DNA of 24,171 bases. It comes from a virus. The notes below the pieces were generated by a model, which was not told where the DNA came from, searched no databases, and saw nothing but the letters and a program-made list of their open reading frames with translations. Location: positions 1-24,171 of IMG/VR virus record IMGVR_UViG_3300007508_000047; one strand, given 5' to 3'. Below, piece after piece: positions 2,418 through 24,171 of the stretch (positions are counted from its first letter, which is position 1; every line of letters begins with the position of its first letter). A program made the translations under genes and the position numbers.

Positions 2418-2578
2418 AAGATGAAGAAGTAGTATTTGAAGAAAGCACAATTTACAATAAACCATTGGAAAATGTTTTACATCAAGCATTAAATTTCAAT
2501 GATCAATTTTTGTCATATCTTAAAGATAAAAAGGCTGAACTTGAAAAAATGAAAAAAGAGATAGAGCAAAATGGCTGA
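2414..2578 (+). CDS. Small Lys/Glu-rich hypothetical protein (54 aa)
   Basis: An ATG at 2414 overlaps the gp5-like stop (ATGA), and AGAGG at 2400-2404 lies nine bases upstream as a good Shine-Dalgarno sequence. The frame runs to TGA 2576-2578, eight bases inside the next gene. It encodes 54 residues, starting MKDEEVVFEEST and ending in a heptad-like, strongly helical stretch (LSYLKDKKAELEKMKKEIEQ), so a short coiled coil is likely. Such a peptide could be a minor baseplate or chaperone component, but I do not recognise a family. The overlaps on both sides and the ribosome-binding site support a real gene. The shortness and compositional simplicity keep confidence moderate. Confidence 0.65.
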   Translation: MKDEEVVFEESTIYNKPLENVLHQALNFNDQFLSYLKDKKAELEKMKKEIEQNG

Positions 2579-5500: not shown

Positions 5501-5906
5501 ACAAACTACAAAAATAAAAGTTATTTTTAAAAATAGTATTTTAACGGATGAAGAGGAAAATTTTGTAAAAGAGCAGTTAGGTGAAAATTATGATTTTAAT
5601 CCTTCAATAAGTGAGGGATCTATTTTTCCTGCCACTACTTCTACTCCTTCTGAGGGAGCAAATTTTATTGTTTCGTCTGGAGATTTTACAACCGCAATTC
5701 CGTTAAATTATAATGGTGAAATGAATGACTTACAAACTGAATTTACATTTGAGTTTAGAGATCAATTACCAGCATCTACATTATATAAAGTAAAGATAAA
5801 GAAAACCATTTTTGATGTTGAAAATAATATATTAAGAGATGATTTCATTTTAGAACAGGGATTTACAACATCAGCAACTACTGTATCAGACATAGGATTT
5901 GAATAA
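2571..5906 (+). CDS. Large probable virion/baseplate protein with two coiled coils and an Ig-like C-terminus (1111 aa)
   Basis: I cannot assign this to a T4 gene. The N-terminal ~80 residues form amphipathic helix around LKVFLSIIKAVLSS. Two helical segments look like coiled coils: residues about 298-363 (ITQDILDSELRKLNEDKTGL onward) and about 754-814 (ETLDEILKFLRGIKKQ onward, rich in I/L heptads and Lys). Between them is a mixed alpha/beta region with PGDKIVQGDFGI near residue 423. After the second coiled coil come a short segment near residue 816 (LYNAKIEGTGGPADF) and one near 900 (LKYSGAFVFFAQGPD). From about residue 975 the pattern becomes SbsA/Big_5 Ig-like, ending LPASTLYKVKIKKTIFD and a TT-containing strand, as in the next gene. 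No catalytic motif, signal peptide or transmembrane helix is evident. Its place between the hub gene and gp25, inside the same operon, implies a structural role near the baseplate. Confidence 0.82.
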   Translation: MAEKQVQFKSNVKIFEGDAGKVVNSIVQNVGDFSDDVANGIENLKVFLSIIKAVLSSVQGPIEQQLLRPLDALISSIEDLKNIGFGTLQVWPWEVGKISPGVDVSKLEDAIIALALMNTDENPQKYKYNSKTGKLFNTDTGKQFGFTASEVESGESTNSSKVALNDSYKNVLDFLDPGSWRGPFDEVAADVLTTVNNSFKIPQLTPSQVISEINASFNDPADSQRPTGTGEYFAQVIIFMLPTHDALREITQAFVDFFSGILGDTPNKSPDVGIKTIELGESVALSGLKDFYDKELNITQDILDSELRKLNEDKTGLEMQLQENDLTVFGVSELNDINNRISAKQREIIRLQRKNEKWIKEGNPIAEKVVSFGDVTIRKFPGVGSSKPYMVKQAQGTHLSEPIAIYYHPDNPQFERIPMFKPGDKIVQGDFGINFRAEVIEHEPIRIENGKITSNKVKVKEVSGEIVPNWSKRGEGRADPIRRLNDRTFDLGIVAQGALTATTKLLEEPLFLPQRKDYPKQQENGKFLCTIEDGSPYLLNVIPNDQEVLSFMKQNDPGEGTLTERQKAFTEQLYGQEIRTNPRIQEKFEEFAKSLSVGEIIEHEYLNTLNFSDLVSDDEESWFPGKSLSTLLPNGGRAYAIKEIFIGDSVSSGNSKEQLFELGPENANGNREILGMNPIKISIGRVTKKGVINDSYSRNGIQVPGGIASLGMDYTGANDVGRNQFRRFAPGIDSSSIPNWNFLRIQDLYPVYGETLDEILKFLRGIKKQVTDFLDKINRSIEFLEKFITEIENLNKKIQKIIRFLAKGLRKAGLYNAKIEGTGGPADFKQKLQNAKIQTVYKRPFKDIELEPVKETIVQKNPLTGTDEKIEVTTLKPVVKEIPASEANPVIENSSWSELDALKYSGAFVFFAQGPDTRKFQKFLELAGLKSKEKSADEIADEKLRSILDKLQREVDKIQVQDSVGTFINAENAINVQQTTKIKVIFKNSILTDEEENFVKEQLGENYDFNPSISEGSIFPATTSTPSEGANFIVSSGDFTTAIPLNYNGEMNDLQTEFTFEFRDQLPASTLYKVKIKKTIFDVENNILRDDFILEQGFTTSATTVSDIGFE

Positions 5907-8900: not shown

Positions 8901-9679
8901 TTGTATCTATTACTGGAGGTAATCAAACTGGTATAGATGTTGACTCAAATGTAATAGTTAAATTCAATCAAACAATGAATGTTGATTCAATAGTGATAAA
9001 TGCTACAGATTCAACAGTTGGATCAGAAAATATCATACTATCTTATGATTCAAATTTTGCAAATTGTATACCTTTGCAAGGTGACTTTTCTTCTTCAAAT
9101 AATGACTCTACTTTTGAATTCAAACCTTTGATTTTGTCAAATACAAGTTTGCAATTAACACAGGACAAAAATCTTTTTTGTAAAGTGACAAGAACGATTA
9201 AAAATAAAGGTGATATGAATTTAGCATCTGCATCTACATTTTCAGGTAACTATGCTAATGTTGCAACAAGTCTTAGTTTTTCAGCATTGAACGCATCTGT
9301 CTATACTGATGGAGGTACAGAAGTCGTATTAGGAACTGGAACATCTGGTTCAATGCCTAATCAGTCTTCATCAATTTCAAGATCAAGTGCTATAGTTATA
9401 CATTTTAATGAGGCAATATTATTATCAACATTCGCAATAGGGTCAGGTAATGAAATCCAATTATCTACTGCTTCAGGTTTTGGATCAGGACATGTAACAT
9501 CAGTTTCATTAGTGAAGACAGGTGAATTTGGAAATTTAATTATGTTAGCACCAACATCTTTATTGACTGCAGGAACAAGATATTATCTGAGAGTTGTTCA
9601 TGGTGTTGGGGGTACAAACGAAGGTGGTAAAGCACTTGCGGCCACTGTATATTTTAATTCATTTACAACTGTATCATAA
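5906..9679 (+). CDS. Multi-domain SbsA/Big_5 Ig-like virion protein (1257 aa)
   Basis: The protein is an array of Ig-like beta domains. Each has the SbsA/Big_5 signature of a strand with F-x-[EQ]-[ST]-M-N-x-x-[ST]-[IV], and most close with a strand around a L-x-x-x-T-x-Y-x-[FIV]-x-V core. Signature strands lie near residues 45 (FTQTITAETVTV), 546 (FSQSMNTSTITV), 721 (FTESMNTQSITV), 1020 (FNQTMNVDSIVI) and 1167 (FNEAILLSTFAI), so about five domains. Between them are other beta modules: an FCCH-like one at about 252-322 (NPCVVTSTAHGL), a second at about 456-535 ending SPASPATGG, and G-E-x-I loops near 218, 826, 850 and 897. Such domains usually mediate surface adhesion or spacing in phage particles. 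The start overlaps the preceding stop (TAATG) and has AGGA at 5894-5897, eight bases upstream. It is probably an outer baseplate or fibre-like decoration protein; the exact location is inference. Confidence 0.75.
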   Translation: MPFNRNEPNNDDGTTFYSNVATYSDTDFENDTIFVPLDTSFNVSFTQTITAETVTVRTQNTDVDVADRNKRGSIQLSSVVQSTKGTASDALNLRALKATSDPAFTNDEAGTPPVLAKDQTADIEVEMENQPSPINPTTIDETDFFSNFSFKPVVNLASNTTYFFNVTPDVKDSFDKPVSLTVGKGFVTDNTKSVITLSNPILGYRVALRDDFDGTYNEGEIILKKGRSTPTAKIVKQEKTSKITYQLELTSFKMNVAYSAANPCVVTSTAHGLAVNDVITIYDIVSGTGLKKQRYTVGSISTDAFVLRNTDTSGFTAGRINYYVNFDNGDIITTDRTDTENIETVIKSRPREVFEDYEMNKLISKVKGSSSGDAFARLIRVDGQTLNYIPIVASDTKEVTSTDSFSNNMIIEQETDNGTLRSFVSANTSPTNNVHPFHTNAPIVTGYDPDAEASMTPTVRILSLTRDNLTATVETNSPHFLSEGDSIVIEGSDQTSYNGTKTITSTPTSNSFTYDVTGSPASPATGGKILLKISGNEQATSFGIDFSQSMNTSTITVANNSHIISANGTSATFSGGQNKASSTIQLSYDEFENLVNIASISANTGNSHFDIIPETLVNARPYKIRVTTACQDLGTTNVEYTNSPDTTFATGLKLFDPTTGKEVIFKDTDPPEIRKISFSTTGSGDVSGKVLESNTASEISNPEDLDTASINLNDESIIVQFTESMNTQSITVNTSDTLPGGSIQMSCDDFETIVQMASAPTVTTTSYLNDTFTFAPKANLSANSNYTVKVKTDVADESENQNFLVTENVSRNKIMTLAAEPSAAYTVGEIIKGTGTLTIRANTGTFVEGLTTGEVIVGDTSLAKGKVYDLNVQTSLIRSIRYTEIPSADDKVHPFIPGENITGENGGTASLSNTSITIPPQGKVISYDNSNPYKITYRQINTERAFTAGSSSANDRVVGVSSNSYGKTSVSTDIVGPGIKTTTTAITVDALFRKTDDSIVSITGGNQTGIDVDSNVIVKFNQTMNVDSIVINATDSTVGSENIILSYDSNFANCIPLQGDFSSSNNDSTFEFKPLILSNTSLQLTQDKNLFCKVTRTIKNKGDMNLASASTFSGNYANVATSLSFSALNASVYTDGGTEVVLGTGTSGSMPNQSSSISRSSAIVIHFNEAILLSTFAIGSGNEIQLSTASGFGSGHVTSVSLVKTGEFGNLIMLAPTSLLTAGTRYYLRVVHGVGGTNEGGKALAATVYFNSFTTVS

Positions 9680-9688
9680 GGATAACAA

Positions 9689-9940
9689 ATGTCTGTAGGT
9701 ATGAACCCAAGTGTTTTGGCAAATGCTATAGCATCGGCTTTACAAAAAGCCGAAAATAATACGGCAGATAGAACATCAGCAAGAAAAGAGTTAGCAACAG
9801 ATTTGGCAAATGCTATAGTTACCGAAGTTAAAAAGGCATCTATTACATCAACAGGCTCTGGAACGGGAACTTTTGTGGGAACTGGATCAGGTCCTGTAAC
9901 GGTTACGACCTTAACGGCAAAATCAACTGTCATTACTTAA
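9689..9940 (+). CDS. Small Ala/Gly/Thr-rich probable structural protein (83 aa)
   Basis: The ATG at 9689 is preceded by AAGGA at 9678-9682 with a six-base gap, one of the clearest ribosome-binding sites in the window. The first ~50 residues are alanine-rich amphipathic helix (NPSVLANAIASALQKAEN, later LATDLANAIVTEVKKA). The last ~30 are Gly/Ser/Thr-rich with beta propensity (GSGTGTFVGTGSGPVTV). This helix-plus-glycine-rich-tail layout resembles small phage structural proteins found beside baseplate or head genes, by my recollection rather than a search. A PAAR spike-tip protein might be expected in such a cluster, but the sequence lacks the Pro-Ala-Ala-Arg repeats, His/Cys metal ligands and length of PAAR proteins. 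It immediately precedes gp25. Confidence 0.8.
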   Translation: MSVGMNPSVLANAIASALQKAENNTADRTSARKELATDLANAIVTEVKKASITSTGSGTGTFVGTGSGPVTVTTLTAKSTVIT

Positions 9941-9946
9941 TAAATA
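9939..9946 (+). promoter_or_regulatory. Candidate late-promoter -10 box (AATAAATA) for the gp25 gene
   Basis: AATAAATA differs by one base from the T4 late-promoter box TATAAATA recognised by gp55. If it sits at -13 to -6 as in T4, transcription would start at 9952, the A of the gp25 start codon. No Shine-Dalgarno sequence precedes that codon. The first two bases overlap the TAA stop of the previous gene, so part of the match is enforced by the stop codon. Promoter activity is inferred. Confidence 0.4.
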
Positions 9947-9951
9947 CTTCT

Positions 9952-10434
9952 ATGTCTAATACTGCAACCGAAAACGATTATTTAAGCATAGGTGGAGGTG
10001 TCAATTTATTTGATGATGAAGCCAGATTCATTCTTAAAAACAGAAACAAAATACAAGAGTTTAAAGACCTTGATTTTCGTTTTGGAAGAAATCCAAACAC
10101 AAATGATGTTGTTCTTTCCACAGGTGATAATGCAGTAAAACAAGCAATAAGAAATATTCTTCTTACACAATATTACGAAAGACCTTTTCGCCCTGGTATT
10201 GGTGCTGGGATTAGATCTTTATTATTTGAACAACAAGACGAAATAACCGCAAGACAGTTAGAAGATGCTATAACCGAAGCCATAGAAAATCATGAGCCAC
10301 GAGCCCGATTATTGAATGTAAGGGTTGAATTAAATGGAGAACATGGCTACAAAGCGACAATCATTTTTGGCATTAGAAACAGAAGCACACCAGTTACATT
10401 CACAACATTCTTAGAAGCACCGAGAGAGATTTAA
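9952..10434 (+). CDS. gp25: gp25-like baseplate wedge protein (GPW/gp25 family)
   Basis: This protein belongs to the GPW/gp25 family. In contractile tails it anchors gp6 in the wedge, and the same fold occurs as TssE in type VI secretion. After a ~35-residue N-terminal extension, the family core runs from about residue 42 (RFGRNPNTNDV), through AVKQAIRNILLTQYYERPFR and PGIGAGIRSLLFE, to the diagnostic EPR at residues 115-117 within NHEPRARLLNVRVEL, and a closing beta strand. At 160 residues it is slightly longer than T4 gp25 (132). It starts 11 bases after the previous gene. There is no visible Shine-Dalgarno sequence, but an AATAAATA box sits immediately upstream. It is followed after two bases by gp6, the same gene pairing seen widely in contractile injection systems. 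Confidence 0.97.
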   Translation: MSNTATENDYLSIGGGVNLFDDEARFILKNRNKIQEFKDLDFRFGRNPNTNDVVLSTGDNAVKQAIRNILLTQYYERPFRPGIGAGIRSLLFEQQDEITARQLEDAITEAIENHEPRARLLNVRVELNGEHGYKATIIFGIRNRSTPVTFTTFLEAPREI

Positions 10435-10436
10435 TC

Positions 10437-12269
10437 ATGGCAGAAGCAAGTAAATTACAAGTATCAGAATTAGATTTTGCTCAAATTAGAGAAAATTTTA
10501 AAACATTCCTATCAACTCAAGATCAATTTAAAGATTATGATACAGATGGTTCAATCATGTCTGTATTATTAGATCTTTTGTCCTATAATACTCATTATAA
10601 TGCATTTTATCTAAACATGGTATCAAATGAGATGTTTCTTGATTCAGCAGTTTTAAGAAATTCAGTCGTTTCTCATGCAAAGGCTCTTGGATATATGCCA
10701 AGATCAAGAAGAGGTGCAGAAGCAAATGTTTCTATTTCTCTTACACCAACAAATAATCCAACATCAGTAACCATAGAGAAAAATACAAAATTTAATACCA
10801 CCGTTGATGGTGTCACTTTTACATTTGTTACTGACACGGCTTACAGTTCTACGGCAAATGGTGATAATGCTACATTAACATTTTCTAATGTTACATTAAA
10901 AGAAGGTCAACCTCTCACTTTTAGATATACTGCTAATAATGAAGATGACAGTCAAAGATTTATCATACCAAATCGTGGTATTGATTCAACTTCAATCACG
11001 GTAACAATTCAAGAATCTTCAGAAGATACGAGACAATATACTTATACTCAAGCATCCGATCTTTTGACTGTTAATTCAACATCAAATGTTTATTATCTTG
11101 AAGAGTCAACCGATTTTAGACCTGAAGTCAAATTTGGTGATGGTGTATATGGGACTAAAATTAAAACAGGTAATCTTGTAATATTAGGATATAATGTATG
11201 TTCAGGTATATTATCAAATGGTGCTAGAACATTCACTCCAGTTTCAACGGTTGCAGGATATTCTGGTGCAACTGTCACAACATCAAATGCCGCATCAGGT
11301 GGTAGTGATGAAGAAACTTCTGATTCCATAAGATTTAATGCGCCAAAACAACTTGCAGTTCAAAATCGTGCGGTTACTGCAAATGATTATAAAAGAATTA
11401 TTGAACGAGATTATCCACAAGCAGATTCCGCTATCGTCTACGGTGGAGAACAAGCAGATCCTCCAGAATTTGGAAAAGTATTCATTGGTATAAAACCTAA
11501 ATCAGGATTGTCACTTACTACTTCTATTAAAGATCAAATTCGTGATGATATTCTAAAAAAATATAATGTAGGTTCAATAACACCTGAGTTTGTTGATTTA
11601 GATACAATTTTTATAAAATTAAATACGACTATAAATTATGATTCACGATTGACCACAAGAACATCAAATGCTATGAGAACCGCAGTTATAAACACTATTA
11701 ATAATTTCTCTGGTGATAAATTAGAAGAATTCAACAATGAATTTAGATTTTCTGTTTTGACTAAATCAATTGATGAGACTGATACTGCAATTTTAGGTAA
11801 TGATACAAAGTTGTATTTGGTAAAAGAATTTATACCCACAATAGGATCATCTCTTACATATACTATAAATTTTAGCAATCAAATACACCATCCACATTCA
11901 GGTTATATTGGTGCAATAACTTCAACAAATTTTTCAATAGTAGATGGTGAAAATGTGTTAAGAACGGATTGTTCGTTAGATGATTTGGATGGTATTATCA
12001 GAATTTTTAGATTAGTAAATAATAAAAAAACGATTGTAAATGCAAATTTAGGAACAATTGATTATATATCTGGTAAAATAGTTTTAAATTCTTTTAATCC
12101 TACTGCATTTGTAGGTTCTAAATTACAAATTACAAGTATACCGGAATCATATGATATAATACCTTTAAGAGAACAAATAGTTCAGATTTCTTCTTCTTTA
12201 TTAACTGTCAATGTAAATGATATATCATCTGTCAAATCTGGAACTCAAACTTTTACATCAACTTCATAA
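10437..12269 (+). CDS. gp6: gp6-like baseplate wedge protein (baseplate J family)
   Basis: gp6 forms the inner ring of the baseplate wedge and dimerises to join neighbouring wedges. The N-terminal segment (residues 11-96) is highly typical of T4-like gp6: DFAQIRENFKTFL, then DGSIMSVLLDLLSYNTHYNA and MFLDSAVLRNSVVSHAKALG. A beta domain follows. The J-like core starts near residue 310 with NRAVTANDYKRIIERDYPQA, then a GKVFIGIKPKSG strand and an IRDDILKKYNVGSITPEFVD segment. The length, 610 residues, is close to T4 gp6 (660). The start codon has GAGAGAG at 10422-10428, eight bases upstream. The gene lies two bases after gp25 and is followed by a 23-base gap. No internal oddity is seen. Confidence 0.95.
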   Translation: MAEASKLQVSELDFAQIRENFKTFLSTQDQFKDYDTDGSIMSVLLDLLSYNTHYNAFYLNMVSNEMFLDSAVLRNSVVSHAKALGYMPRSRRGAEANVSISLTPTNNPTSVTIEKNTKFNTTVDGVTFTFVTDTAYSSTANGDNATLTFSNVTLKEGQPLTFRYTANNEDDSQRFIIPNRGIDSTSITVTIQESSEDTRQYTYTQASDLLTVNSTSNVYYLEESTDFRPEVKFGDGVYGTKIKTGNLVILGYNVCSGILSNGARTFTPVSTVAGYSGATVTTSNAASGGSDEETSDSIRFNAPKQLAVQNRAVTANDYKRIIERDYPQADSAIVYGGEQADPPEFGKVFIGIKPKSGLSLTTSIKDQIRDDILKKYNVGSITPEFVDLDTIFIKLNTTINYDSRLTTRTSNAMRTAVINTINNFSGDKLEEFNNEFRFSVLTKSIDETDTAILGNDTKLYLVKEFIPTIGSSLTYTINFSNQIHHPHSGYIGAITSTNFSIVDGENVLRTDCSLDDLDGIIRIFRLVNNKKTIVNANLGTIDYISGKIVLNSFNPTAFVGSKLQITSIPESYDIIPLREQIVQISSSLLTVNVNDISSVKSGTQTFTSTS

Positions 12270-12292
12270 CCGTAGGAACTGAGTAGTAATAA

Positions 12293-15200
12293 ATGGCGTT
12301 TGATTATTTAAAAGATACAGACCATATAACACTAGATGAAAAGGTTTCATCATTAATTCCTGGTGAATTTCCAGAATTTTTTAGAGAAGATGGAAAAGAT
12401 CTTGTAAATTTTTTCAAAACTTATTATAAATTTTTAGAGACAAATGAACTTGTAATTTCAAGTATTGAACAAAATGAATATTTTGTTACAACCGAAAGAG
12501 AAGACCCTTTTTTACTTGAAGATGGTGATAATTTAGTATTGGAGAGTAGCAGAACAACAACTTCTGCTTTTTCAAAAGGTGAAAAAATAAAAGGACAATC
12601 TTCAGGAGCCGAAGCAATAGTTGATAGGAATATTATAACAACTGATACACTTATTTTTGCTTCTGATCTTACAAGAAAAAATTTTGATGTTGGAGAAATA
12701 ATTGTAGGACAAACAAATAGATGTGAGGCCAAAGTTGTTTCTTTTCGCAAAAATCCATTATTTGCATCTCGCACACTTTTAAGAGGTATTGATGTTGATT
12801 CTACTTCTGAAGATTTTTTAAATTATTTTAGAAAAGAATTTTTATCGGATTTACCTGAAAATCTTGAAACAGACAAGAGACTTCTTCTCAAACATATAAT
12901 AAAAATTTATAGATCAAAAGGTTCTACCGATTCATTCAAATCTCTATTTAAAGCCTTATATGATATTCAAGATTTAGATATTTATTATCCGAAAAACGAT
13001 TTGCTCAAGCCGTCATCTGGTGATTGGAGAAGAGAAAACACTTTAAGAATCATCACAGACGATTCTAATGATAAATTTGAATCAAGAACCATTACAGGTC
13101 AATTATCAAGTGCCACGGCAATTGTAGATAGAGTAGAAAATTTTGTATCTGGTGCCTTGCAAGTTACTGAATTGTTTTTGACAGATATTTCAGGAACATT
13201 TATAGTTGGTGAAACGGTACAATCTTCAACATATAATGGTACGACAGGATCAGGTGTTACACAAGGTGTTTTAACAGACATCAATATTATTAGTGCAGGA
13301 ACAAATTATCTTGTTGGTGATGTTGTATCAGTAACCGGAGGCGGAGGTCAAGATGCCGCCGCAAGAGTTGAAACTATTGGAACTGGATCAATTAGAGGTT
13401 TTACTGTCTATGATGGTGGTGATGGATATATTAATGGTACTGCTCTATCAGTTAATAATTTTGCTACAGGAGGAGATGGTGTAACCGGAGAAGTTTCAGG
13501 AATTTCACATACATTTTCATTTACAACTGTTCAAGATATTATTGCAGATGTTCAATTTGTTACATTAAATTCTACTGAATTTGGTTTACAAGGTAGCACT
13601 ACTGCCAATGTAGCAAATACCTTAATTGAGGCTTTAGGTTTTGCTGTAACACAGATAGGTGCAGTATCAAATGTAAAAGCGACAGGATTAGGTACAGGTT
13701 ATGAAGCATCTCCTATAATTTCTTTAAAACAGCCTGAGATTAAAAAATTCTCTGAAACGGGTATTAGTATTTTGAATTTAAATTCAGATCCTGATAGTTC
13801 ATCTTTAACAAATGCCATTAGTGGATCTTTTACTATAGATGAAAGAATAACTTCAGCGACTGGGCAAAAAGTTGGAACATTTCATGGTATTGTAGCAACC
13901 GAATCAACAATTGATGATCCAACAAGAATAAGATTTAAACCTTTACATTATTTGGGTGCTTTTGGATTAGGTAGATATGATTTAATACCTAATACAACAA
14001 ATTATATTAATACAACTGCTCCAGCAATTTATGATATACAAATTGTGCAAACTGGAAACACAACTACAAATACATTTAAATATCGTAGAGGTGTAAATGC
14101 GGCTAGTGCAAATTCAACCAATGCATCAAATACTGATTTTACTGAATATACAAATACTCCAACCACAATAACTGCTGAAGATCAAAAACTTACATTTCCT
14201 GTATCTAGCATAACTAGAAGTTCTACAACTGCAACTGTAACAACTTCCAAAAAACATGGATTTGTAACAGGTCAAAAGGTAATAATATCTGGAGCAACTC
14301 AAGCAGAATATAATGGACAACAAACAATAACTGTTGCGAGTACAACTACATTTACTTATACTGTTTCAGGAAGTCCTGCCACTCCAGCAACTACTGCTAG
14401 TGCCATAACATATGATGAAAATGTTGCGGTAAGATTTACTTTGCCTTTTGGGCATGAGTCAGATGACCGATATCTCATGTCAACTGTAAACTTTACGAAT
14501 GATGATATAATAACGGGTTTTAGAAGTAACTCTCAAGCAACTGTAAATACAGGTGTAGCCGTTGCTGATGGTGGTATCAGAGGAAATAATGCGACTGTTG
14601 ATGTTTCAGGTTTAGCGGCTGGTTCAGTCAAATCTATTGAAATAACAAATTTTGGTGTAGGTTATGCTACTCCTCCAACGGTAAGTCTTGCCACCAAAGG
14701 AGGAGGAAATGCAAATTTAACTGCTAATATCGGTGCCGTAGGTGTAACTCCAGGTTCATATAGAAATAGGGATGGTCAACTAAGTTCAGAGAAAAAATTA
14801 ATTGATAGTAATTTTTATCAAGATTACAGTTATAGTTTAAGAAGCACAAAACAACTGAGCAAATATAAACCAACTGTTGAAAAATTACTTCACCCTGCAG
14901 GTATGAAAATGTTTGGAGAATTGAGAGATCAAGAAATCAATCTTCAAATGGGTTTTGATAATATTTTTCAACAAGAACAATCTGGTGATGCGATATTATT
15001 AGAAGATGGTGATAACATTTTAACAGAATTGTATTTTGATCCAACACATTCTATTCAATTAAATCAAAATAAACTGTTATCTAATGCCTCTGGTGGAACA
15101 ATCTCTTACACTGGTAATTCTGTAACTATTACTGGTTCTGATGCTACATTTCTTGATTTAGAAACTGCAACTCCTGGTGGATCTGGTGTTTTAAGAAATG

Positions 15201-16384
15201 AAGATCAGACTAGATTGGAATTAAATGAAAGTACAGGAACAGATTTTGCAAATGATTATCCTGAGAATTCAACTTTTGTAATTGATGATGAACAGGCATT
15301 CATTGTTTCATATGGTGAATTACTATTAGAAAATTCTTTGATAGGTACATTAAATTCTTCTTCTTCAAATGTTTTAAGTACCATCACTATTACAAATACT
15401 ACTGCCACATTTTCTGTTGGAGAAACTGTAACGCAAAAAACAGATGATGTATTGACTTTAGAACCTGTTACGGATGCTTCAAATACTACAACAATTGGTG
15501 ATTTATTGCTTGAAACATCAAATACTACTTTTGTAGAACGATTAACTTTTAATGATCAAACTACAACGGGTTCGGGTATTGTTCATTCTTATTTTACTGA
15601 TCCTGCTAATAATAAAATATTGATTTTACATTCTTCCAATGGAGCATTTTTAACAAGTGCAAATGCTGAAGGGGTAACATCAGGAGCCAGTGCAAATCTA
15701 TCGTCTTTTTCAAATAATTTAATTTATGGTGTTGGCACAGATTTTGAAGATGATTTAAGAGTAGATGATGATATAACCATAGTCGGTATATCAGGGTCAA
15801 TGAAAGTTACAGAAATTATCAATTCATCAGCAATTATATGTAATACAACAATTGGTACTGGTGTTACATTATATTTTGATAATTCTACGATAAAACATAA
15901 TTTTTTAAATGAAACATCTATAAGAGGTACTACGAGTGCCAATGGAATATTAGATGGTAGTACAACAATAACAGGAGCAAATACATTTTTTGACAATGAT
16001 CTTGATGAAAATGATATAATTACATTATCTTCTAATACATCACAAAAAGTTCAAGTGACTTCAATTACAAATTCTACTCAAATAGTGGTAAATACTGCCA
16101 TAGGAGATGGTTCATTAAATCAAACTTTTAATTTTGTGGGTTCAAGAAGATTGGACTTTGAGAGAAATAGAACTGTTTTAACTTTAAATAGACCTTATTT
16201 GGGATCAAATAACTTTTTAAGAGTTAATGATACAATAGCATCAAATGGTTTTCTGTTACTTGAAGATGGGGTAGGATTGTTAAATGTTGAATATCAAGCA
16301 ACGACTTCTACAAAAGGAACATTTCAATTTGAAGACTTGTCTACATTTTCAGAACAGTCTTCAAAATTCATCACAATTATCTGA
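12293..16384 (+). CDS. gp7-position baseplate wedge protein, enlarged (1363 aa)
   Basis: It lies between gp6 and gp8, the slot of T4 gene 7 (wedge initiator, 1032 aa), and is likely its functional counterpart. Similarity to T4 gp7 itself is not obvious to me. The N-terminus (residues 1-60) contains PEFFREDGKDLVNFFKTYYK. A second helical segment, about 185-245, reads LLLKHIIKIYRSKGSTDSFK then LFKALYDIQDLDIYYP. Both look like conserved elements of large marine myovirus wedge proteins. Beta-rich G-x-GY repeats follow (about 335-480 and 780-820). A conserved segment at about 831-880 includes FYQDYSYSL and LHPAGMKMFGE. The last ~490 residues are repetitive beta modules. LLEDG occurs three times, near residues 74, 902 and 1321. 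An AGGA at 12274-12277 is 15 bases before ATG, rather far for a Shine-Dalgarno sequence. Confidence 0.75.
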   Translation: MAFDYLKDTDHITLDEKVSSLIPGEFPEFFREDGKDLVNFFKTYYKFLETNELVISSIEQNEYFVTTEREDPFLLEDGDNLVLESSRTTTSAFSKGEKIKGQSSGAEAIVDRNIITTDTLIFASDLTRKNFDVGEIIVGQTNRCEAKVVSFRKNPLFASRTLLRGIDVDSTSEDFLNYFRKEFLSDLPENLETDKRLLLKHIIKIYRSKGSTDSFKSLFKALYDIQDLDIYYPKNDLLKPSSGDWRRENTLRIITDDSNDKFESRTITGQLSSATAIVDRVENFVSGALQVTELFLTDISGTFIVGETVQSSTYNGTTGSGVTQGVLTDINIISAGTNYLVGDVVSVTGGGGQDAAARVETIGTGSIRGFTVYDGGDGYINGTALSVNNFATGGDGVTGEVSGISHTFSFTTVQDIIADVQFVTLNSTEFGLQGSTTANVANTLIEALGFAVTQIGAVSNVKATGLGTGYEASPIISLKQPEIKKFSETGISILNLNSDPDSSSLTNAISGSFTIDERITSATGQKVGTFHGIVATESTIDDPTRIRFKPLHYLGAFGLGRYDLIPNTTNYINTTAPAIYDIQIVQTGNTTTNTFKYRRGVNAASANSTNASNTDFTEYTNTPTTITAEDQKLTFPVSSITRSSTTATVTTSKKHGFVTGQKVIISGATQAEYNGQQTITVASTTTFTYTVSGSPATPATTASAITYDENVAVRFTLPFGHESDDRYLMSTVNFTNDDIITGFRSNSQATVNTGVAVADGGIRGNNATVDVSGLAAGSVKSIEITNFGVGYATPPTVSLATKGGGNANLTANIGAVGVTPGSYRNRDGQLSSEKKLIDSNFYQDYSYSLRSTKQLSKYKPTVEKLLHPAGMKMFGELRDQEINLQMGFDNIFQQEQSGDAILLEDGDNILTELYFDPTHSIQLNQNKLLSNASGGTISYTGNSVTITGSDATFLDLETATPGGSGVLRNEDQTRLELNESTGTDFANDYPENSTFVIDDEQAFIVSYGELLLENSLIGTLNSSSSNVLSTITITNTTATFSVGETVTQKTDDVLTLEPVTDASNTTTIGDLLLETSNTTFVERLTFNDQTTTGSGIVHSYFTDPANNKILILHSSNGAFLTSANAEGVTSGASANLSSFSNNLIYGVGTDFEDDLRVDDDITIVGISGSMKVTEIINSSAIICNTTIGTGVTLYFDNSTIKHNFLNETSIRGTTSANGILDGSTTITGANTFFDNDLDENDIITLSSNTSQKVQVTSITNSTQIVVNTAIGDGSLNQTFNFVGSRRLDFERNRTVLTLNRPYLGSNNFLRVNDTIASNGFLLLEDGVGLLNVEYQATTSTKGTFQFEDLSTFSEQSSKFITII

Positions 16385-16391
16385 ATAAATA
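16384..16391 (+). promoter_or_regulatory. Candidate late-promoter -10 box (AATAAATA) for the gp8 gene
   Basis: AATAAATA is one base from the T4 late box TATAAATA. With T4 spacing the +1 would be 16397, exactly the A of the gp8 start codon. No Shine-Dalgarno sequence precedes this start. Only the first A belongs to the upstream TGA stop, so the match is not forced by the stop codon. Activity is inferred. Confidence 0.45.
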
Positions 16392-16396
16392 ATAAT

Positions 16397-18226
16397 ATGC
16401 CAAGTTTAGTCACAACAAAATTTAAAATACATAACGCTGAACAATTCATTGAATCTCTTGATGAAACGAATGCAACAAATCTTTATTTGTTTGTAGGGAG
16501 AGTTGAGGATTGGGATGCTGGTGGTGGAGCCTTTGATGATACAAATCCACCTGCACCAACTGATTCAGTTGCTAATACTAATTACGATTATTGGAATGCA
16601 ATGATTGCCGCTAAAAAAGTTACGGCAACGGATGTGAGTCATGTAATCAGAAGAATAAATTGGGAATCTCAAACAAATTATACTGCTTATACTCATACCA
16701 ATAGTGATATCTATGCTAATAATTTTTATGTTATATCAGATGATTTTAATGTCTACAAATGTTTGCAAAATAATTTAGCAAATGGTGCATCAACTATCAA
16801 ACCTACAGGAACTGGAACGGCAACTATTGAATTGACTGATGGTTATAAATGGAAATACATGTACTCTATTAGTTCTGAAGAAATTTTAAGATATACAACA
16901 AGTGCATATGTACCAGTCAAAAAAATTGGGGCAACAGATGATGGATCAGCACAATTTGACGTTGAACAAGCGGCAGTAGATGGTAGTTTAGAAATCATTA
17001 ACAAAACATCAAATGGTGATTTTAGAATAGAAATGACTGCAAGACCCTCAAATATACAGGGTGATGATCAAGATTTTATAGTAGGTGAAACTATTACAGG
17101 ACAAACATCAGAAAACGAAGGTACTATCATTTCTTATACAAGTGATGCAAATAATTTAGTTTATTTTCCGAATGGTAATTCATTAATGACTAATACAGAA
17201 GTGATTGTTGGTGGAACTTCAGGAGCAAGAGGGACACTAAGTCAATCTGTATTTTCAACATATAAATTTGATGAAGGAACATTGGCGGCAGTATCTAATA
17301 CAACTGTTATGACACTTGCATCAAGTGCAAATAATACTTCTGATAGCATTTATGTGGATTCTACTTTGTTTATTAAAAATAATGCCGCCAGAGGTGAACA
17401 ATCAAAAATAAGTGCTTACGATGCATCTTTAAGAAGAGTAACACTTGAACACGCATTGACCATAAGTCCTAATACTTCATCAGGATATACAATATCACCA
17501 ACTGTACAAATTGATGGTGACGGTGATGCTACGGTTATGGGACGAACTGAAGGTAATACAACTCATGGAGTCACTGGTATTTTCATTACTGTAAAAGGAT
17601 CGGATTATACAACTGCAACAACTAATGTATATGCAAATTCAAGTCATGGTACTGGTGCAAATGGTAATGTTATTATCAGCCCTCCTGGAGGTCACGGTAA
17701 GAATGCTATAGAAGAATTGGGCGGAAATCGTGTCATGATTGATGTGAGAGTTTCTGGTAATGAATCTGGACTTTTCACAACTGCAAATGATTTTAGACAA
17801 GTTGGGCTTGTTAGAGATCCATTACAATCAGCAAATGCAAATGCGTTTTTTACTTCATCACTTGCAGATCAAGCAGTAAAATTATCATTAACTGATGTTA
17901 CAAGTTTTCAAGAAGACGAGACTGTAAAAATGCCACAAATTTATCAAGGTAATGGTTTAGCAAATAGTACCGCTAATGGTGTGCTTATTGATTTAAAAAA
18001 TAATGTCATGAGATTAAACAGAATACAAGGTGATTTCTCATCAAATTCAACCGTCAATACAATCACTGGTGCCACATCAGGTGGTACTGCAACAATTATT
18101 ACGAGTGGTGTTACCGATCCTGATATGAAGCCATATAGTGGAGACATACTATATATTGAGAATAGAAAACCAGTAACAAGATTAGACGATCAAGTTGAGG
18201 ATTTTAAAATAGTCCTGGAGTTTTAA
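16397..18226 (+). CDS. gp8: gp8-like baseplate wedge protein with two large insertions
   Basis: gp8 is a wedge subunit that binds gp6, gp7 and gp10 in the T4 baseplate. The N-terminus matches T4 gp8 in order: VTTKFKIHNAEQFI, an NLYLFVGRVEDWD strand, PPAPTDSVANTNYDYWNAMI, VIRRINWE, and DGYKWKYMYSISSEEILRY near residue 150. The C-terminus also matches: DFRQVGLVRDPL at about 465, and a terminal segment from residue 577 (MKPYSGDILYIENRKPV) to a final DQVEDFKIVLEF. T4 gp8 is 334 residues and this protein is 609. The extra residues fall in two places, about 179-460 and 478-575, and consist of beta modules with GETITGQTS-type loops (about 229) shared with neighbouring virion proteins. No Shine-Dalgarno sequence is visible; AATAAATA sits at -13 to -6 of the ATG. 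Confidence 0.95.
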   Translation: MPSLVTTKFKIHNAEQFIESLDETNATNLYLFVGRVEDWDAGGGAFDDTNPPAPTDSVANTNYDYWNAMIAAKKVTATDVSHVIRRINWESQTNYTAYTHTNSDIYANNFYVISDDFNVYKCLQNNLANGASTIKPTGTGTATIELTDGYKWKYMYSISSEEILRYTTSAYVPVKKIGATDDGSAQFDVEQAAVDGSLEIINKTSNGDFRIEMTARPSNIQGDDQDFIVGETITGQTSENEGTIISYTSDANNLVYFPNGNSLMTNTEVIVGGTSGARGTLSQSVFSTYKFDEGTLAAVSNTTVMTLASSANNTSDSIYVDSTLFIKNNAARGEQSKISAYDASLRRVTLEHALTISPNTSSGYTISPTVQIDGDGDATVMGRTEGNTTHGVTGIFITVKGSDYTTATTNVYANSSHGTGANGNVIISPPGGHGKNAIEELGGNRVMIDVRVSGNESGLFTTANDFRQVGLVRDPLQSANANAFFTSSLADQAVKLSLTDVTSFQEDETVKMPQIYQGNGLANSTANGVLIDLKNNVMRLNRIQGDFSSNSTVNTITGATSGGTATIITSGVTDPDMKPYSGDILYIENRKPVTRLDDQVEDFKIVLEF

Positions 18227-18229
18227 TAA

Positions 18230-21200
18230 ATGCCTAAATTAACGCAAGATTTTAACATTTCACCATATTATGACGATTTTGATAGCACTAAGAATTTTTA
18301 TAAAATTCTTTTTCGTCCAGGGTTCTCGGTACAAGCCAGAGAACTTTCCCAACTTCAAACCATTTTACAAAAACAAATTGAAACACTTGGAGATTATGTA
18401 TTTTCTGATGGTGCAAAAGTTTATGGTGGTGAAGTCACTCTAAATACAACTCTTAATTCCTTGCAACTAAAAACAAATTATTCTGGTGACGAAATAGATG
18501 TAACGAACTTTGAGGATAGAATTATAACAGGTCAAACATCAGGTGCTAGGGCTTTGATTATAAAATCAGTGGCATTTACACAAACATCATTAAATACTTT
18601 AATTATTAATTACCTTGATGAAAAAACATTTGTTGACGATGAAATTATACAAACTACAACTTCAGGTACATTATCTACATATTTTGCTAATGTGGCAGGT
18701 GCGGCTGAAGGGTTAACAGGTGTAACTACATTAGTCACTTCAATCTCATCTGATGTTACTTCAACCGTAAGCATATCAGAAGCAATTTATTACATTGGAG
18801 GTTATTTCGTATATGTTGAACCTCAAACAATTGTTTTAGATCGTTTAGGGAATACTCCAACTTATAGAATTGGATTAACTGTAAATGAAGAACTTATCAC
18901 AAGCGTAGACGATACAAGTTTACTTGATAATGCTTTAGGTTCTTCAAATTATTCTGCTCCAGGTGCAAATCGTTATAAAATATCATTGACATTTTCTAAG
19001 AAAGATATTTTTGAATCTGGTGTTCCTGTCGTATCATCAGGTGTAACTTTTTCATCAGCATCAAATACAGTTACTATCACTACTTCAACTGATCACAATT
19101 TATCTGCTGGAGATTTAGTAGTTGTTTCAAATACGACACAAGCAGAATATTTAGGTAAACATACAATTGCAAGCGTTCCATCTGGTACAACTTTTACATA
19201 TTTTATTACAGGTTTACCTGTCACTCCTGCTACAGGATCTGATATTCAGTATACCAAAGTTATTACCGACCCTATTGAAAGAAATTCAGACGAAAATTTT
19301 ATTGAATTATTAAGAGTAGAAGATGGTGTAAAAACAGAAGAGGTAACATATCCAATATTAGGTGAATTAGAAAAAACTCTTGCTAGAAGAACATATGATC
19401 AATCTGGAGATTTTACGGTTAAACCATTTGGTTTAGATGTTGTTCAGCATAAAATTTCTGGTGTAGCCTCAGCAAGAACTGCCGCTAATGCATGTACAAA
19501 TTTTACAGGTAATGGAACAAATTTTGCAAGTTCTTTAAATGATTCAGATGTTATTTTTCTTTCAGGTAATACTACTCGTACAGGTACTATAAGTTCAATT
19601 ACAAATAATTCTGTTTTAACACTTTCTTCAGGTGTAACTTTAGGAGATGGGTCAGATAACCAACGAATAGGTATTGAAACAAAGTTGACTGGTGAACTTG
19701 GGCCTGGTAAAGCATATGTCAAAGGTTATGAATATGAAAGTATTAGCACAAAAACAGTAGATATAAACAAAGCACGAGATACGAGAACTGTAGATGGTGA
19801 GAGCCAAGGTGTAAATTTTGGTCCATATTTAATTGTCACAGATTTATTAGCAAATACTCAATTTGATATTGGCGCAAATACTGCAAATGGTGAGATTAAA
19901 GGTTCAGGAATGGATCTTGTTGATTTGCATATGGTTAAATATCCATCAACTCAAGACGGTCATTGTGCATCTCCTTCATCACCTATCATATTCACATCAA
20001 ATGATGAAATAGATTTTGTAGGTATTGATACTACAAGTGCCGCCACAATTGCAAATACTAAAATTGGTACTGCAAGAATAAGACAACTTGATTTTAGAAA
20101 AGGACGAGACTCGTCTGTAAGCACAAAATATGGAACTTCAGGTGCCAATACAATGCATCAAGTATTTCCTCACGTATATGATGCTCATCTTTTTGATTTT
20201 AGATTTGATAAAACAACAGGAACTGTTGGTGGTGCAGTAGCAAATACGACACTCATAAAATTAAAAACATCAGGTGCTCAATCTTTTCCAACAATGAATT
20301 GTCTGTATGGAACGACTATTACAGTCAATACTTCTTTTCAAGGTGTTGACACTTCAGATACGAGAACAATTATAAGTTGGTCAGGAGCAAATAATAATGC
20401 AGGTGTAGGGTATGATCCTGATAATGATGGATCTGCTGAAGCCGCTAATTATCATGCACAACTTGATTCTGCATTAACGCAACAAACACGAGCAGATTCA
20501 ACATATTCAATAAATTTTGGTGTTAAAGACGTTTCATCAATGGTTCAATATGCGACAACCACTATTGTAAAAGGATTAAATGTTGATCCATCAGGTAGAT
20601 TAAATGGAAAAGAAACCGCCAATACAATATTATATGACAATACTGATGATAGAAGAAGTTTAATTTTTCCATTACAAAATCAAGCGGTTGCTAATCTTGA
20701 ACCATCAGGATCAAGTAATACAAAATTCAAATTTAAAAGAACTTTTTCTGGTACGCTCACACAAAATCTTGTCACGTTAACTGCACCAACAGGAGAAAAG
20801 TTTTATCCTGGTTCTGATGGTACAATTACAACCACGGTAGCAGATGCAAATTATATTGTTTCTGTAAAGAGTGGAACACACCAGGGCGATATAATAGAAT
20901 TTTCAAATACATCAGGTTCAGGACTTCATGCTGGTGCATCAGAAACACGAACACTTGTAACTTCATCATCTGCTGGATCATTAGCAATCAATGTTCAATC
21001 AGACGATTCAAATGCAAAAAATTATGCTGGATCACAACTTGAAGTTATTGCTACAATGCAAATTGATGCCGCCACTCTAAGCACATCAGGATCAGGTATT
21101 GGTAAAAAAGTTCTTGTGTCTGGTAATACTACTGGAGCAAATGCTCTGTTTAATAGTGCAAACTCAGTTCAAGCAACCGCTGGACAAATTCATTTTGGAA

Positions 21201-24171
21201 CATCAATGAATAATGATCCAGGCGCTAATAATTCTCTTAAACTTGCTGATATTAAAAAACTTGTTGCGGTTGTGGATTCATTGTCGGATACTGTAGTTGT
21301 TTCAAATACGATGGTTACAGCCGCAATAGCAAACTCTTCTAGTCAATATAATATTACTTCAAGATTTGTATTGAATGATGGACAAAAAGATAATTATTAT
21401 GATTATGGAAAAATCTCATTGAAACCAGGTGAAACAAAACCTTCAGGACAAGTTATTGCCATTGTTGATTATTATACTCACTCTGGACAAGGGCCTTTCA
21501 CAGTAGATTCTTATACTTGGTCAGGATCAGGTAATACTTCTTATGGTGAAATACCTGATTATACATCTCCTGCTACGGGTAATAAAATTAATCTAAGAAA
21601 TGTGATTGATTTTAGACCTAAAAGAATAGGTATAGAAACTGCAAATACTGATGATGTTAATTATACGAATGATATTACCTCCACATCTAATGTTTTTGCA
21701 GAAAAAATTCTACCAGATTATGATTTTACATTTGATACAGATTATTCTCATTATATTCCTAGAAAAGATAAAATTGCATTATCAAAAGATCGTTTCTTTA
21801 AAGTAATTGAAGGTGTTTCAGACATAAATCCAGTTTTACCTCCTGATGATCCAGATGCAATGACATTGTATAATCTTGAAATTCCTGCATATACATTTGT
21901 ATCAAGTGGTGCAACAAGTGGTGTAACAAGCGGAACAACAAATGGTACTTCAAGTGGTGCAACAAGTGGAATAAAAGTTGAATATGTAGACAATCGTAGA
22001 TTTACAATGAGAGATCTAGGAAAACTTTCAAAACGAGTAGAAACGCTTGAATATTACACTGCATTGAGTTTACTTGAAAAAGAAGCAGATAGTTTGGTGA
22101 TTACAGATACAAATAATAATGATAGATTTAAAAATGGTATTTTTGCAGATCCATTTGCTGGTCATAATTTAGGAGATGTTGAAAATTTAGATTACTATGC
22201 AGGCATTGACTTTGATAAAAAACATTTACGGCCTCCTACAACTACGGATTTACAAAAATTAGAATTTAATAGTAATACAAATTTTAGCACTCTTGTAAAT
22301 AATGGAGGTGTGATCACATTGCCTTTTTCTTCAAGTAGAATTATTGATCAGCCTTTGACGGGTAGTGTAGATGGTAAAAATGTACAAAAAACATATTCCA
22401 TAAACCCCAATTCTTTAAAAAATTATATTGGTCAATTGTCGTTAGATCCTCCAACGGATAATTGGTATGATACCTCTAATCGTGCAGATGTTAAAGTAAA
22501 TTTAGAAGGACAATATGATAATTGGCTTTATGTGACAACCGCAAATGGTCATGGAACACACTATAATGATTGGGAAGATATTTGGTCAGGTGTTGAAGTA
22601 AATAATGATGTGAAAAAGAGTGTAAGAGATTCTGGTGATGTTCTATCTAATAATAGAAAAGCAAAAACCACAGGTCAGACGAAAACATTAACAGGTCTTA
22701 AATCAGGAAATGTTCCTGAAAAAATCACAAAAATTGTAGGAAATAAATCAGTTAATATTAGTGTAGTTCCTAAAATAAGAGAACAAACAATTACATTTGT
22801 TGCAAAAGGATTAAAGCCCAATAAAAATGTATATGCCTATTTTGGAGATACAAAAATTACTGCAAATGTAAAACAAGCAACTTTACTTACACTTTCAAAT
22901 GTAAGCACTTCAAATGTTTTTAGAACTACACCTGGTAATTTTGAACAAATTACAATTCAGGGCAGTGCAAGTAATGCAGGCAATACTGCAAATGTGGTTT
23001 ACATGTCAGATCGTGATAGTGCTAATGGTTGTACAATTATGATCGTTAATCAATCTACAGATGCCGCATTTACTGTAAGTTCAGTTATAAGAGGAAATGA
23101 TACACTCGCAAATGGTACAATTTCAGCAGTAACAAATTATTCTTTTGCTAATTCTGAAATAAGAGTCAATAACGAAGGGGTATCGGCAGGTGTATATAAT
23201 GTTCAATCAGGTACATTTCCAGCAGGAGAGGTTCTTTTCAGATTAACGGATGAAATAGACAATATTGTTGCCACAACAACTTCTGTTACAGAAGATATAT
23301 TTCATATTAAAGGTGTAATTGAAAATAATAGAATTGGAGATTTTATTTCAACTAGACCTATAATTTTGAGAAGAGAAGATATTACTGAGGATCGTATTGC
23401 AAAAAGTTCTACAATAGCGAGACAAACAAGTTCAAATAAATATTTGAATCCAATGGCTCAAAACTTTTTTGTTGATGAAAATTTATATCCTTTCGGATTG
23501 TTTTTATATAGTATTACACTATTTTTTAATGCTAAAGACACTTCCCTCGGATCAAAGAATCCCGTAACACTACAGTTAAGACCAACTTATAATGGAATAC
23601 CAAGTTCATCTGAAATTATTCCAGGGTCCGAAGTTGTATTGACTCCTGGTAAAGTATCCGCTAATACAACAACACCTAGTGCAAATGCATCAGGAGGATT
23701 TCCTGGAGCAACACTTGGAAATTCATTTTCTGCAAATAAAAGTGGTGCTAATGTTGGTTCAAGAACAATATTTAAATTTGATATGCCCGTTTATTTGTCT
23801 GCAGGTGAATATTCAATAGTTTTAATAACAAATAATGCAGAATATAAAATTTATGGGTTTGAACTTGGTGCGAAATCAACAGGTACAGACAGAAAAATAA
23901 CAAAACAACCTTATGTAGGTAGTTTCTTTAAACCAACAAACGCTGGAGTATGGAACCCAACCAATACTGAGGGTTTAATGTTTCAAATAGATAGATGTAA
24001 TTTTTCTACTGAAACAGGTTATGCAAGATTTGATAATAAGGTGTTTACATCAGGAAATGCATCTTCAAATACGATTATGGATGGTATGAAATTGGTTACT
24101 GAGAGAATTGAACATGCAAATACCACAATTTCTAATTTCTTTTTTGCTACAGAAAAAAGTGGAACAACAAA
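18230..24171 (+). CDS. Giant DUF4815-like virion protein, incomplete at window end (at least 1980 aa)
   Basis: The frame was followed from ATG 18230 and is open where I checked it, out to the last base. GGAG at 18217-18220 lies nine bases upstream, and gp8 ends three bases before the start. Residues 12-66 carry a signature I associate with the DUF4815 family of large phage structural proteins: PYYDDFDSTKNFYKILFRPG, then FSVQARELSQLQTILQKQIE. Further conserved-looking parts are ELGPGKAYVKGYEYESI and a KARDTRT motif (about 490-520), FRPKRIG (about 1130), a helical MRDLGKLSKRVETLEYY segment (about 1259-1288), and a C-terminal beta domain from about 1738 (NPMAQNFFVDE, later VYLSAGEYSIVLI and QPYVGSFFKP). 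It probably forms an outer baseplate, pin or fibre-like structure. It occupies the slot downstream of gp8, where T4 has genes 9-12. Homology to gp10 is not evident to me. Confidence 0.78.
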   Translation, partial: MPKLTQDFNISPYYDDFDSTKNFYKILFRPGFSVQARELSQLQTILQKQIETLGDYVFSDGAKVYGGEVTLNTTLNSLQLKTNYSGDEIDVTNFEDRIITGQTSGARALIIKSVAFTQTSLNTLIINYLDEKTFVDDEIIQTTTSGTLSTYFANVAGAAEGLTGVTTLVTSISSDVTSTVSISEAIYYIGGYFVYVEPQTIVLDRLGNTPTYRIGLTVNEELITSVDDTSLLDNALGSSNYSAPGANRYKISLTFSKKDIFESGVPVVSSGVTFSSASNTVTITTSTDHNLSAGDLVVVSNTTQAEYLGKHTIASVPSGTTFTYFITGLPVTPATGSDIQYTKVITDPIERNSDENFIELLRVEDGVKTEEVTYPILGELEKTLARRTYDQSGDFTVKPFGLDVVQHKISGVASARTAANACTNFTGNGTNFASSLNDSDVIFLSGNTTRTGTISSITNNSVLTLSSGVTLGDGSDNQRIGIETKLTGELGPGKAYVKGYEYESISTKTVDINKARDTRTVDGESQGVNFGPYLIVTDLLANTQFDIGANTANGEIKGSGMDLVDLHMVKYPSTQDGHCASPSSPIIFTSNDEIDFVGIDTTSAATIANTKIGTARIRQLDFRKGRDSSVSTKYGTSGANTMHQVFPHVYDAHLFDFRFDKTTGTVGGAVANTTLIKLKTSGAQSFPTMNCLYGTTITVNTSFQGVDTSDTRTIISWSGANNNAGVGYDPDNDGSAEAANYHAQLDSALTQQTRADSTYSINFGVKDVSSMVQYATTTIVKGLNVDPSGRLNGKETANTILYDNTDDRRSLIFPLQNQAVANLEPSGSSNTKFKFKRTFSGTLTQNLVTLTAPTGEKFYPGSDGTITTTVADANYIVSVKSGTHQGDIIEFSNTSGSGLHAGASETRTLVTSSSAGSLAINVQSDDSNAKNYAGSQLEVIATMQIDAATLSTSGSGIGKKVLVSGNTTGANALFNSANSVQATAGQIHFGTSMNNDPGANNSLKLADIKKLVAVVDSLSDTVVVSNTMVTAAIANSSSQYNITSRFVLNDGQKDNYYDYGKISLKPGETKPSGQVIAIVDYYTHSGQGPFTVDSYTWSGSGNTSYGEIPDYTSPATGNKINLRNVIDFRPKRIGIETANTDDVNYTNDITSTSNVFAEKILPDYDFTFDTDYSHYIPRKDKIALSKDRFFKVIEGVSDINPVLPPDDPDAMTLYNLEIPAYTFVSSGATSGVTSGTTNGTSSGATSGIKVEYVDNRRFTMRDLGKLSKRVETLEYYTALSLLEKEADSLVITDTNNNDRFKNGIFADPFAGHNLGDVENLDYYAGIDFDKKHLRPPTTTDLQKLEFNSNTNFSTLVNNGGVITLPFSSSRIIDQPLTGSVDGKNVQKTYSINPNSLKNYIGQLSLDPPTDNWYDTSNRADVKVNLEGQYDNWLYVTTANGHGTHYNDWEDIWSGVEVNNDVKKSVRDSGDVLSNNRKAKTTGQTKTLTGLKSGNVPEKITKIVGNKSVNISVVPKIREQTITFVAKGLKPNKNVYAYFGDTKITANVKQATLLTLSNVSTSNVFRTTPGNFEQITIQGSASNAGNTANVVYMSDRDSANGCTIMIVNQSTDAAFTVSSVIRGNDTLANGTISAVTNYSFANSEIRVNNEGVSAGVYNVQSGTFPAGEVLFRLTDEIDNIVATTTSVTEDIFHIKGVIENNRIGDFISTRPIILRREDITEDRIAKSSTIARQTSSNKYLNPMAQNFFVDENLYPFGLFLYSITLFFNAKDTSLGSKNPVTLQLRPTYNGIPSSSEIIPGSEVVLTPGKVSANTTTPSANASGGFPGATLGNSFSANKSGANVGSRTIFKFDMPVYLSAGEYSIVLITNNAEYKIYGFELGAKSTGTDRKITKQPYVGSFFKPTNAGVWNPTNTEGLMFQIDRCNFSTETGYARFDNKVFTSGNASSNTIMDGMKLVTERIEHANTTISNFFFATEKSGTT
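21903..21974 (+). repeat. 12-bp in-frame tandem repeat, six imperfect copies
   Basis: Units of 12 bp related to CAAGTGGTGCAA follow each other without gaps: units at 21903, 21915, 21927, 21939, 21951 and 21963. Units 1 and 5 are identical; the others differ by one to six bases. They encode repeats of the type (T/S)-(S/N)-G-x, starting SSGATSGVTSGT. They lie inside the DUF4815-like giant at about residues 1225-1248, directly before the helical MRDLG segment. The encoded stretch is probably a flexible Gly/Ser/Thr linker. Confidence 0.85.

Follow-up and report, generated by a model that had tools for sequence, protein, structure and literature searches.

Here we describe the starts of two baseplate wedge genes, gp25 and gp8, in a stretch of marine bacteriophage DNA of 24,171 nucleotides (nt), positions 1 to 24,171 of the IMG/VR virus record IMGVR_UViG_3300007508_000047, which we call the window. 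At both starts the octamer AATAAATA is followed by five bases and then by the ATG, at 9952 for gp25 and at 16397 for gp8. We propose, with a probability of about 85%, that these boxes are T4-type late promoters lying flush with the start codons and making leaderless mRNA. A sequence-only reading of the window had placed AATAAATA at -13 to -6 of both ATGs, had judged the two starts poor in Shine-Dalgarno (SD) sequence and had raised the idea of leaderless late messages. The first two points are confirmed; the third is supported, as a strong inference from sequence and not as a demonstration. The gene assignments in that reading are also firm, by their PHROG profiles (Table 1).

Among the nine starts of the window, SD pairing is weakest at gp25 (+1.6 kcal/mol) and gp8 (+0.4), and the other seven show moderate or good pairing, from -2.9 to -6.0 kcal/mol. 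One further copy of the box had been reported, which is right for the plus strand (23435-23442, intragenic) and missed two minus strand copies, at 3782 and 12979. As a word, WATAAATA is no more frequent in the window than expected (5 copies vs 9.7); thus, the signal is its placement. When the 40 bases upstream of the nine starts were locally shuffled 5,000 times, two starts with ATAAATA at -12 occurred in none of the shuffles and one such start in 26. The string AATAAATG at 12293 and 18230, which the sequence-only reading had rightly doubted, was rejected as a signal, both being ordinary starts with purine-rich, SD-like sequence upstream (energies in Table 1).

The same arrangement is conserved in the window's clade. 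A gp8 protein scan of IMG/VR, taken to the best 80 of 597 loci, gave 78 with a readable start after L036 and L040, which lack the gp8 start, were dropped. All 29 loci with 49-100% identity (L004-L031 and L035) show ATAAATA-N5-ATG without an SD, and ATAAATA-N5-ATG also occurs at one distant locus, L083; the other 48 mostly carry SD-like sequence, often with a box farther upstream. The 29 comprise 21 distinct sequences, in all of which ATAAATA and a T at -1 are invariant, and the heptamer holds 2.00 bits per base vs 0.80 for positions -30 to -14. Copies of the window (L003, L004, L036 and L084) were excluded from some clade sets. A gene-call-free scan of 24 clade records (twenty fetched, the window and three near copies) returned 33 distinct ATAAATA sites at spacer 5, that is, with five bases between box and start codon, whereas the remaining 60 spacers in the range 0-60 gave 48 distinct sites combined and at most 7 each. 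In a heptamer control at spacer 5, ATAAATA scored 30 and each of twelve other heptamers 6 or fewer; these replaced a reversed-box control, which was uninformative because ATAAATA reads the same backwards. The spacer-5 genes of the clade are gp25, gp8, gp2 (DNA end protector), an LtfC-like gene of 116 amino acids and an HNH_3 endonuclease gene.

These starts might instead be served by read-through from upstream transcripts, with termination-reinitiation or 70S scanning at the start codon, the AT-rich box reflecting start accessibility or arising as a by-product of stop codons. Both window boxes do touch an upstream stop codon (TAA 9938-9940 for gp25 and TGA 16382-16384 for gp8), with the stops 11 and 12 nt from the ATG, and scanning 70S initiation is an established route in the available text of PMC9031893. 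However, across relatives at gp25, gp8 and gp2 the distance from the upstream stop to the ATG varies from 4 to 35 nt while the box position is fixed, so that stop-codon composition, which we rejected as a source of the box, does not explain it. The HNH_3 endonuclease and LtfC-like genes have the same spacing as first genes of divergent units, where the nearest same-strand open reading frame (ORF) of at least 60 amino acids, if any was found, ends 423-3,193 nt upstream. Moreover, the same clade records carry the box 40-51 nt upstream of two SD-led genes, where a role in translation is impossible; these genes are probably gp18 and gp20, judged by their N-termini and by matches in the same records to the cultured isolate HTVC008M. 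Use of one box both abutting starts and far from SD-led starts argues for a promoter and not a translation signal, and we consider read-through with re-initiation quite improbable.

SD strength also changes with box distance. With the box taken as [AC]TAAATA and a strong SD as -4.5 or better, strong SDs accompany 0/29 clade sites and 3/59 sites of eight related records at spacers 4-9, compared with 10/24 and 70/115, respectively, at spacers 15-60. The sequence-only reading had suggested such an anticorrelation, and it is found in the window's clade (p = 6e-5) and in the eight related records (p = 9e-17). Seven other records (T4, Syn9, S-PM2, P-HM2, OC, G022 and G029) have 8 of 196 sites at spacers 4-9, and their SD difference by spacer is not significant (p = 0.09). 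Spacers 10-14 are sparse, with 2 clade sites and 7 in the eight related records, a gap that fits a putative rule in which the message has either no leader or one long enough for an SD. Start-adjacent boxed starts without an SD, as leaderless mRNAs would have them, are present in the window, in its clade and among the gp25 relatives described below.

To extend this analysis to named phages, we searched twelve of them for ATAAATA-N5-ATG. In HTVC008M all nine matches are annotated coding-sequence starts, in a genome with 5,611 ATG triplets; the genes are dioxygenase-like, csgF, gp48, gp25, tail-fibre-like, tape measure, gp2 and two small genes. A count of all 7-mer/position pairs at the 198 annotated starts of this phage, made without a preset motif, put ATAAATA at -12 first, ahead of the SD (count 9, tied with its own one-base shift). 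In Mosig, 5 of 6 matches within the annotated stretch examined are annotated starts. The best 80 of 241 IMG/VR relatives of HTVC008M gp25 all have a box whose spacer to an in-frame ATG is 5-9 nt (5 in 36, 6 in 20, 7 in 3, 8 in 19 and 9 in 2), and none of the 31 distinct sequences has a strong SD. Relatives of HTVC008M gp2 have the box at spacer 5 or 8 in 24/30. Row L284 was dropped before these counts. The layout turns up repeatedly at certain late genes (gp25, gp2, gp8, gp48, tail and hub genes), lateness being judged by structural gene role only, for gp25 and gp8 in the window and for gp2, gp48 and tail tube elsewhere. Judged by sequence, many marine T4-like phages have this putative promoter layout, cultured pelagimyophages and the methylophage Melnitz among them, and it appears repeatedly in phages whose hosts are abundant bacteria of the ocean.

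Such matches could in principle reflect chance or AT-rich composition, as the genomes have a G+C content of 29-40% and WATAAATA is a common word, with the expectation in the window given above. We compared spacer-5 sites opening an ORF of at least 60 amino acids with the mean of 100 upstream shuffles. HTVC008M has 9 sites against a shuffle mean of 0.44 (maximum 4) and G030 has 5 against 0.09 (maximum 1); the remaining counts, with shuffle means in brackets, are G032 8 (0.60), Mosig 6 (0.43), G033 4 (0.18), Melnitz 3 (0.39), G023 3 (0.18), P-HM2 3 (0.26), G034 2 (0.20) and S-PM2 1 (0.28). No such site was found in T4, Syn9, OC (an Ochrobactrum phage), G022 or G029 (examined to 140,000 of its 150,810 bases), and T4, OC and G029 lack them despite similar AT content. 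Together with the spacer scans, which exclude it, this leaves chance or composition a negligible probability. The positional enrichment at -13 that the sequence-only reading had envisaged in related genomes is thus seen at the gp8 loci, in the clade scan, at the HTVC008M starts and against shuffles.

The T4 late box is numbered -13 to -6 (PMC2988020, available text), and by this numbering the A of the ATG would be +1 at spacer 5. Among 76 leadered promoters carried by the same phages, 52 have A, 15 G, 9 T and none C as the sixth base past the box, a purine in 67. At spacer 5 the base at -1 is T in 39, C in 12, A in 2 and G in 2 of 55 non-redundant starts, a pyrimidine in 51 (93%). This base composition places the predicted +1 on the A of the ATG, as the sequence-only reading had suggested. 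At spacer 6 a pyrimidine occupies the sixth position in 6/7 cases, which would shift initiation to the A of the ATG, and spacer 8 has a purine there in 9/9, giving a predicted 3-nt leader.

These bases also bear on the alternative that the promoters are genuine and that the true transcription start lies a few bases upstream, leaving a leader of 1-5 nt, or inside the gene, so that no strictly leaderless mRNA is made. In T4, late transcription is described as starting roughly a helical turn away from the box (PMC2988020, available text), and the existence of spacers 6-9 shows that small leaders are tolerated; at this minority of sites some leaders may be 1-3 nt long, not zero. Yet the purine/pyrimidine pattern of the leadered promoters marks the sixth base as +1 and changes at spacers 6 and 8 in the expected way, the -1 base at spacer 5 is overwhelmingly a pyrimidine, and spacer 5 predominates, with 55 families against 7, 6, 9 and 3 at spacers 6, 7, 8 and 9. 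We rate the odds of this alternative as slim. Divergent gene pairs point the same way. A gap of 26 nt separates gp2 of HTVC008M from the divergent head-completion gene, one of the two having ATAAATA and the other CTAAATA at spacer 5, and in G002 divergent start codons 25 nt apart flank the shared palindrome TATTTATAAATA; with 25-26 nt between start codons there is no room for leaders.

Separately, divergent pairs of late boxes stand back to back with 0-4 nt between them (TATTTAK-N-[AC]TAAATA) at gp2/head-completion, LtfC-like and other junctions, in G007, G008, G011, G015, G016, G020 and others, and in L185 at about 18917-18942. Convergent box pairs number only 4 across the records compared (2 in T4 and 1 each in G023 and G030).

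Our model suggests that the window boxes act as T4-type late promoters with the gp55-class box NATAAATA. Both boxes fall within the T4-type definition (TATAAATA or NATAAATA), and an A at -13 is a natural variant of the T4 late promoter, present at 9/50 sites in the available text of PMC2988020. With the boxes so placed, transcription would begin at the A of the ATG, the flush promoters would yield leaderless gp25 and gp8 mRNAs, and ribosomes would initiate at the 5'-terminal AUG without an SD sequence. Downstream genes of the same units would retain their own SDs, among them gp6, presumably on one message with gp25. The boxes, their spacing and conservation, the missing SDs and the bases at the initiation site are observed; use of the boxes by gp55-RNA polymerase, the exact 5' end and leaderless translation are what we infer here. 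Genes for gp55, gp33 and gp45 are all encoded in HTVC008M, Mosig and Melnitz, and gp33 was found in four records of the window's clade.

Several observations weigh against this reading of flush, leaderless late promoters. In the window's clade, gp55, sought by BLAST and profile, and gp45 were not found, because the genome region that holds them is not covered by these contigs. One of the nine boxed sites of HTVC008M has a fair SD (-5.4). Leadered versions exist, of gp8 in HTVC008M and Mosig and of gp25 in Melnitz, so that the layout is not tied to one gene, and the site counts share ancestry. CTAAATA replaces ATAAATA at spacer 5 in gp25 of G005, G006, G010 and G013 and in gp2 of G005, G006 and G014, in gp2 of G004 the CTAAATA stands at spacer 4, and neither heptamer occupies the start-adjacent place in gp25 of G016. 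Start-adjacent CTAAATA in these homologues suggests a wider box, [AC]TAAATA. Finally, the AUG expected of leaderless mRNAs is seen at clade spacer 5 (39 ATG, 1 GTG and 0 TTG), a comparison of low power that makes AUG preference weak evidence, since only 8/198 HTVC008M starts are non-ATG.

T4 late promoters (gp55/gp33/gp45, TATAAATA) and their variant in cyanophage S-PM2, the late box of cyanophages being known as NATAAATA (PMC2984593, available text), share with the marine phages the same 8-base box and the late structural genes. In T4, however, the box lies at least 12 nt from ATGs that open an ORF of at least 60 amino acids, mostly 15-40 and usually with an SD between, and spacers 0-11 are empty, whereas in the marine phages it abuts the start. 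The box is already known, and its placement flush with the start codon is supported, by sequence comparison, as a putative new variant of the T4 late promoter. Bacterial leaderless mRNAs share the lack of an SD with these phage genes, for which an absent leader and an AUG start are predicted as well. They include phage lambda cI and are common in Mycobacterium and Deinococcus (PMC9031893); the cases named in the available text of that source are host genes or a repressor, whereas here virus-specific late promoters would serve the virion genes of lytic phages. In the available parts of the sources concerned, efforts to predict late promoters in pelagimyophages had reportedly failed (PMC7029224), Melnitz was predicted to have 15 late promoters with TATAAAT, 'leaderless' appearing only in a reference title (PMC9004378), and phage transcripts were said in passing to be often leaderless (PMC5312081). 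We found no account of late promoters lying right at the start codon in the pelagiphage, cyanophage and T4-like literature, mostly outside subscription papers. Our results offer a concrete rule for a share of pelagimyophage late promoters, with exact 5' ends predicted in cultured isolates, and a start-codon rule for annotation. If the reading is true, very abundant phages of the ocean would make leaderless mRNAs for major virion genes, and this would add a testable mRNA feature to the problem of how the bS21 of phages might favour their transcripts.

Phage bS21 has been proposed to select phage transcripts late in infection, and HTVC008M bS21 is reported to enter E. coli 70S ribosomes; in the available text of the same paper the word leaderless is absent and no mRNA feature is named as selected (PMC9723584). 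A candidate for the selected feature would be the leaderless layout. We found bS21 in HTVC008M, Mosig, Melnitz, G023, G030, G032, G033, G034 and G037, including all eight large leaderless-rich records. It was not found in T4, Syn9, S-PM2, P-HM2, OC, KVP40, phiM12, pf16, P-SSM2, G021, G022 or G029, in the partial records G024, G031, G035 and G036, or in 17 clade contigs that are partial in genome coverage. Near-leaderless sites number 2.1-9.7 per 100 kb in eight bS21 records fetched whole vs 0-1.6 in seven others. At least 4 sites at spacers 5-9, a cut-off chosen after seeing the counts, are present in 7/8 bS21 records vs 0/7 others, Melnitz (with bS21) and P-HM2 (without) having 3 each, and the bS21 records are relatives. 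The pattern occurs 3, 5 and 2 times, respectively, in the partial records G031, G035 and G036, in which bS21 was not matched. Shared descent alone could explain the association. We rejected the idea that bS21 itself stands directly under a late promoter of this class: a late box was found within 150 nt in 0/50 distinct upstream regions (L420, L471, L479 and L492 dropped), which counts against a simple late co-expression model. In a two-part late switch of marine T4-like phages with a bS21 gene of their own, bS21-modified ribosomes would initiate efficiently on leaderless mRNAs, and flush late promoters would make selected virion mRNAs leaderless. We think such a switch unlikely; if true, it would separate late phage translation from SD-led host translation.

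Many of the bS21 upstream regions (L189:11228-11431 and L415-L494) have a conserved hairpin-like leader, tcgttcataatgtagacctc, with no Rfam family at the gathering threshold in L431, L443 and L456. The end of a tRNA gene lies 17 nt ahead of bS21 in L415.

Table 1 Features of the window and boxed starts of HTVC008M.
Feature	Position	Strand	Profile match	SD energy (kcal/mol)	Remark
Late-promoter box AATAAATA of gp25 (putative)	9939..9946	+			-13 to -6 of ATG; spacing kept in relatives
Late-promoter box AATAAATA of gp8 (putative)	16384..16391	+			-13 to -6 of ATG
gp25 baseplate wedge gene	9952..10434	+	PHROG 261, 3.5e-41	+1.6	A9952 is predicted transcription start and first start-codon base
gp8 baseplate wedge gene	16397..18226	+	PHROG 438, 3.8e-105	+0.4	A16397 is predicted transcription start
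Small ORF upstream of gp25	9689..9940	+	PHROG 5576 (unknown)		TAA overlaps gp25 box; own start with SD
gp6 baseplate wedge gene	10437..12269	+	PHROG 219, 1.1e-170	-5.1	Directly 3' of gp25
Baseplate wedge gene (gp7 position)	12293..16384	+	PHROG 17744	-4.2	SD-led; TGA abuts gp8 box
Long DUF4815 gene 3' of gp8	18230..24169	+		-5.9	SD-led; continues past window end
HTVC008M boxed ATGs	6280, 7562, 19456, 31132, 49760, 75559, 142360	+
HTVC008M boxed ATGs	16007, 18916	-

Between gp5 and gp25 the window carries two very long genes, 2571-5906 and 5906-9679 (1,111 and 1,257 amino acids), with no PHROG match. Three different records (G032 at 141998, G033 at 65196 on the minus strand and G030 at 101214 on the minus strand) encode small proteins with a GGCAGFEY-like motif and start-adjacent boxes; these may be HesB/IscA-like. 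In L147 an HNH_3 endonuclease gene beside gp18 (14163-14585, minus strand) has its own start-adjacent late box, so that a gene of mobile type carries the promoter type of the virion genes.

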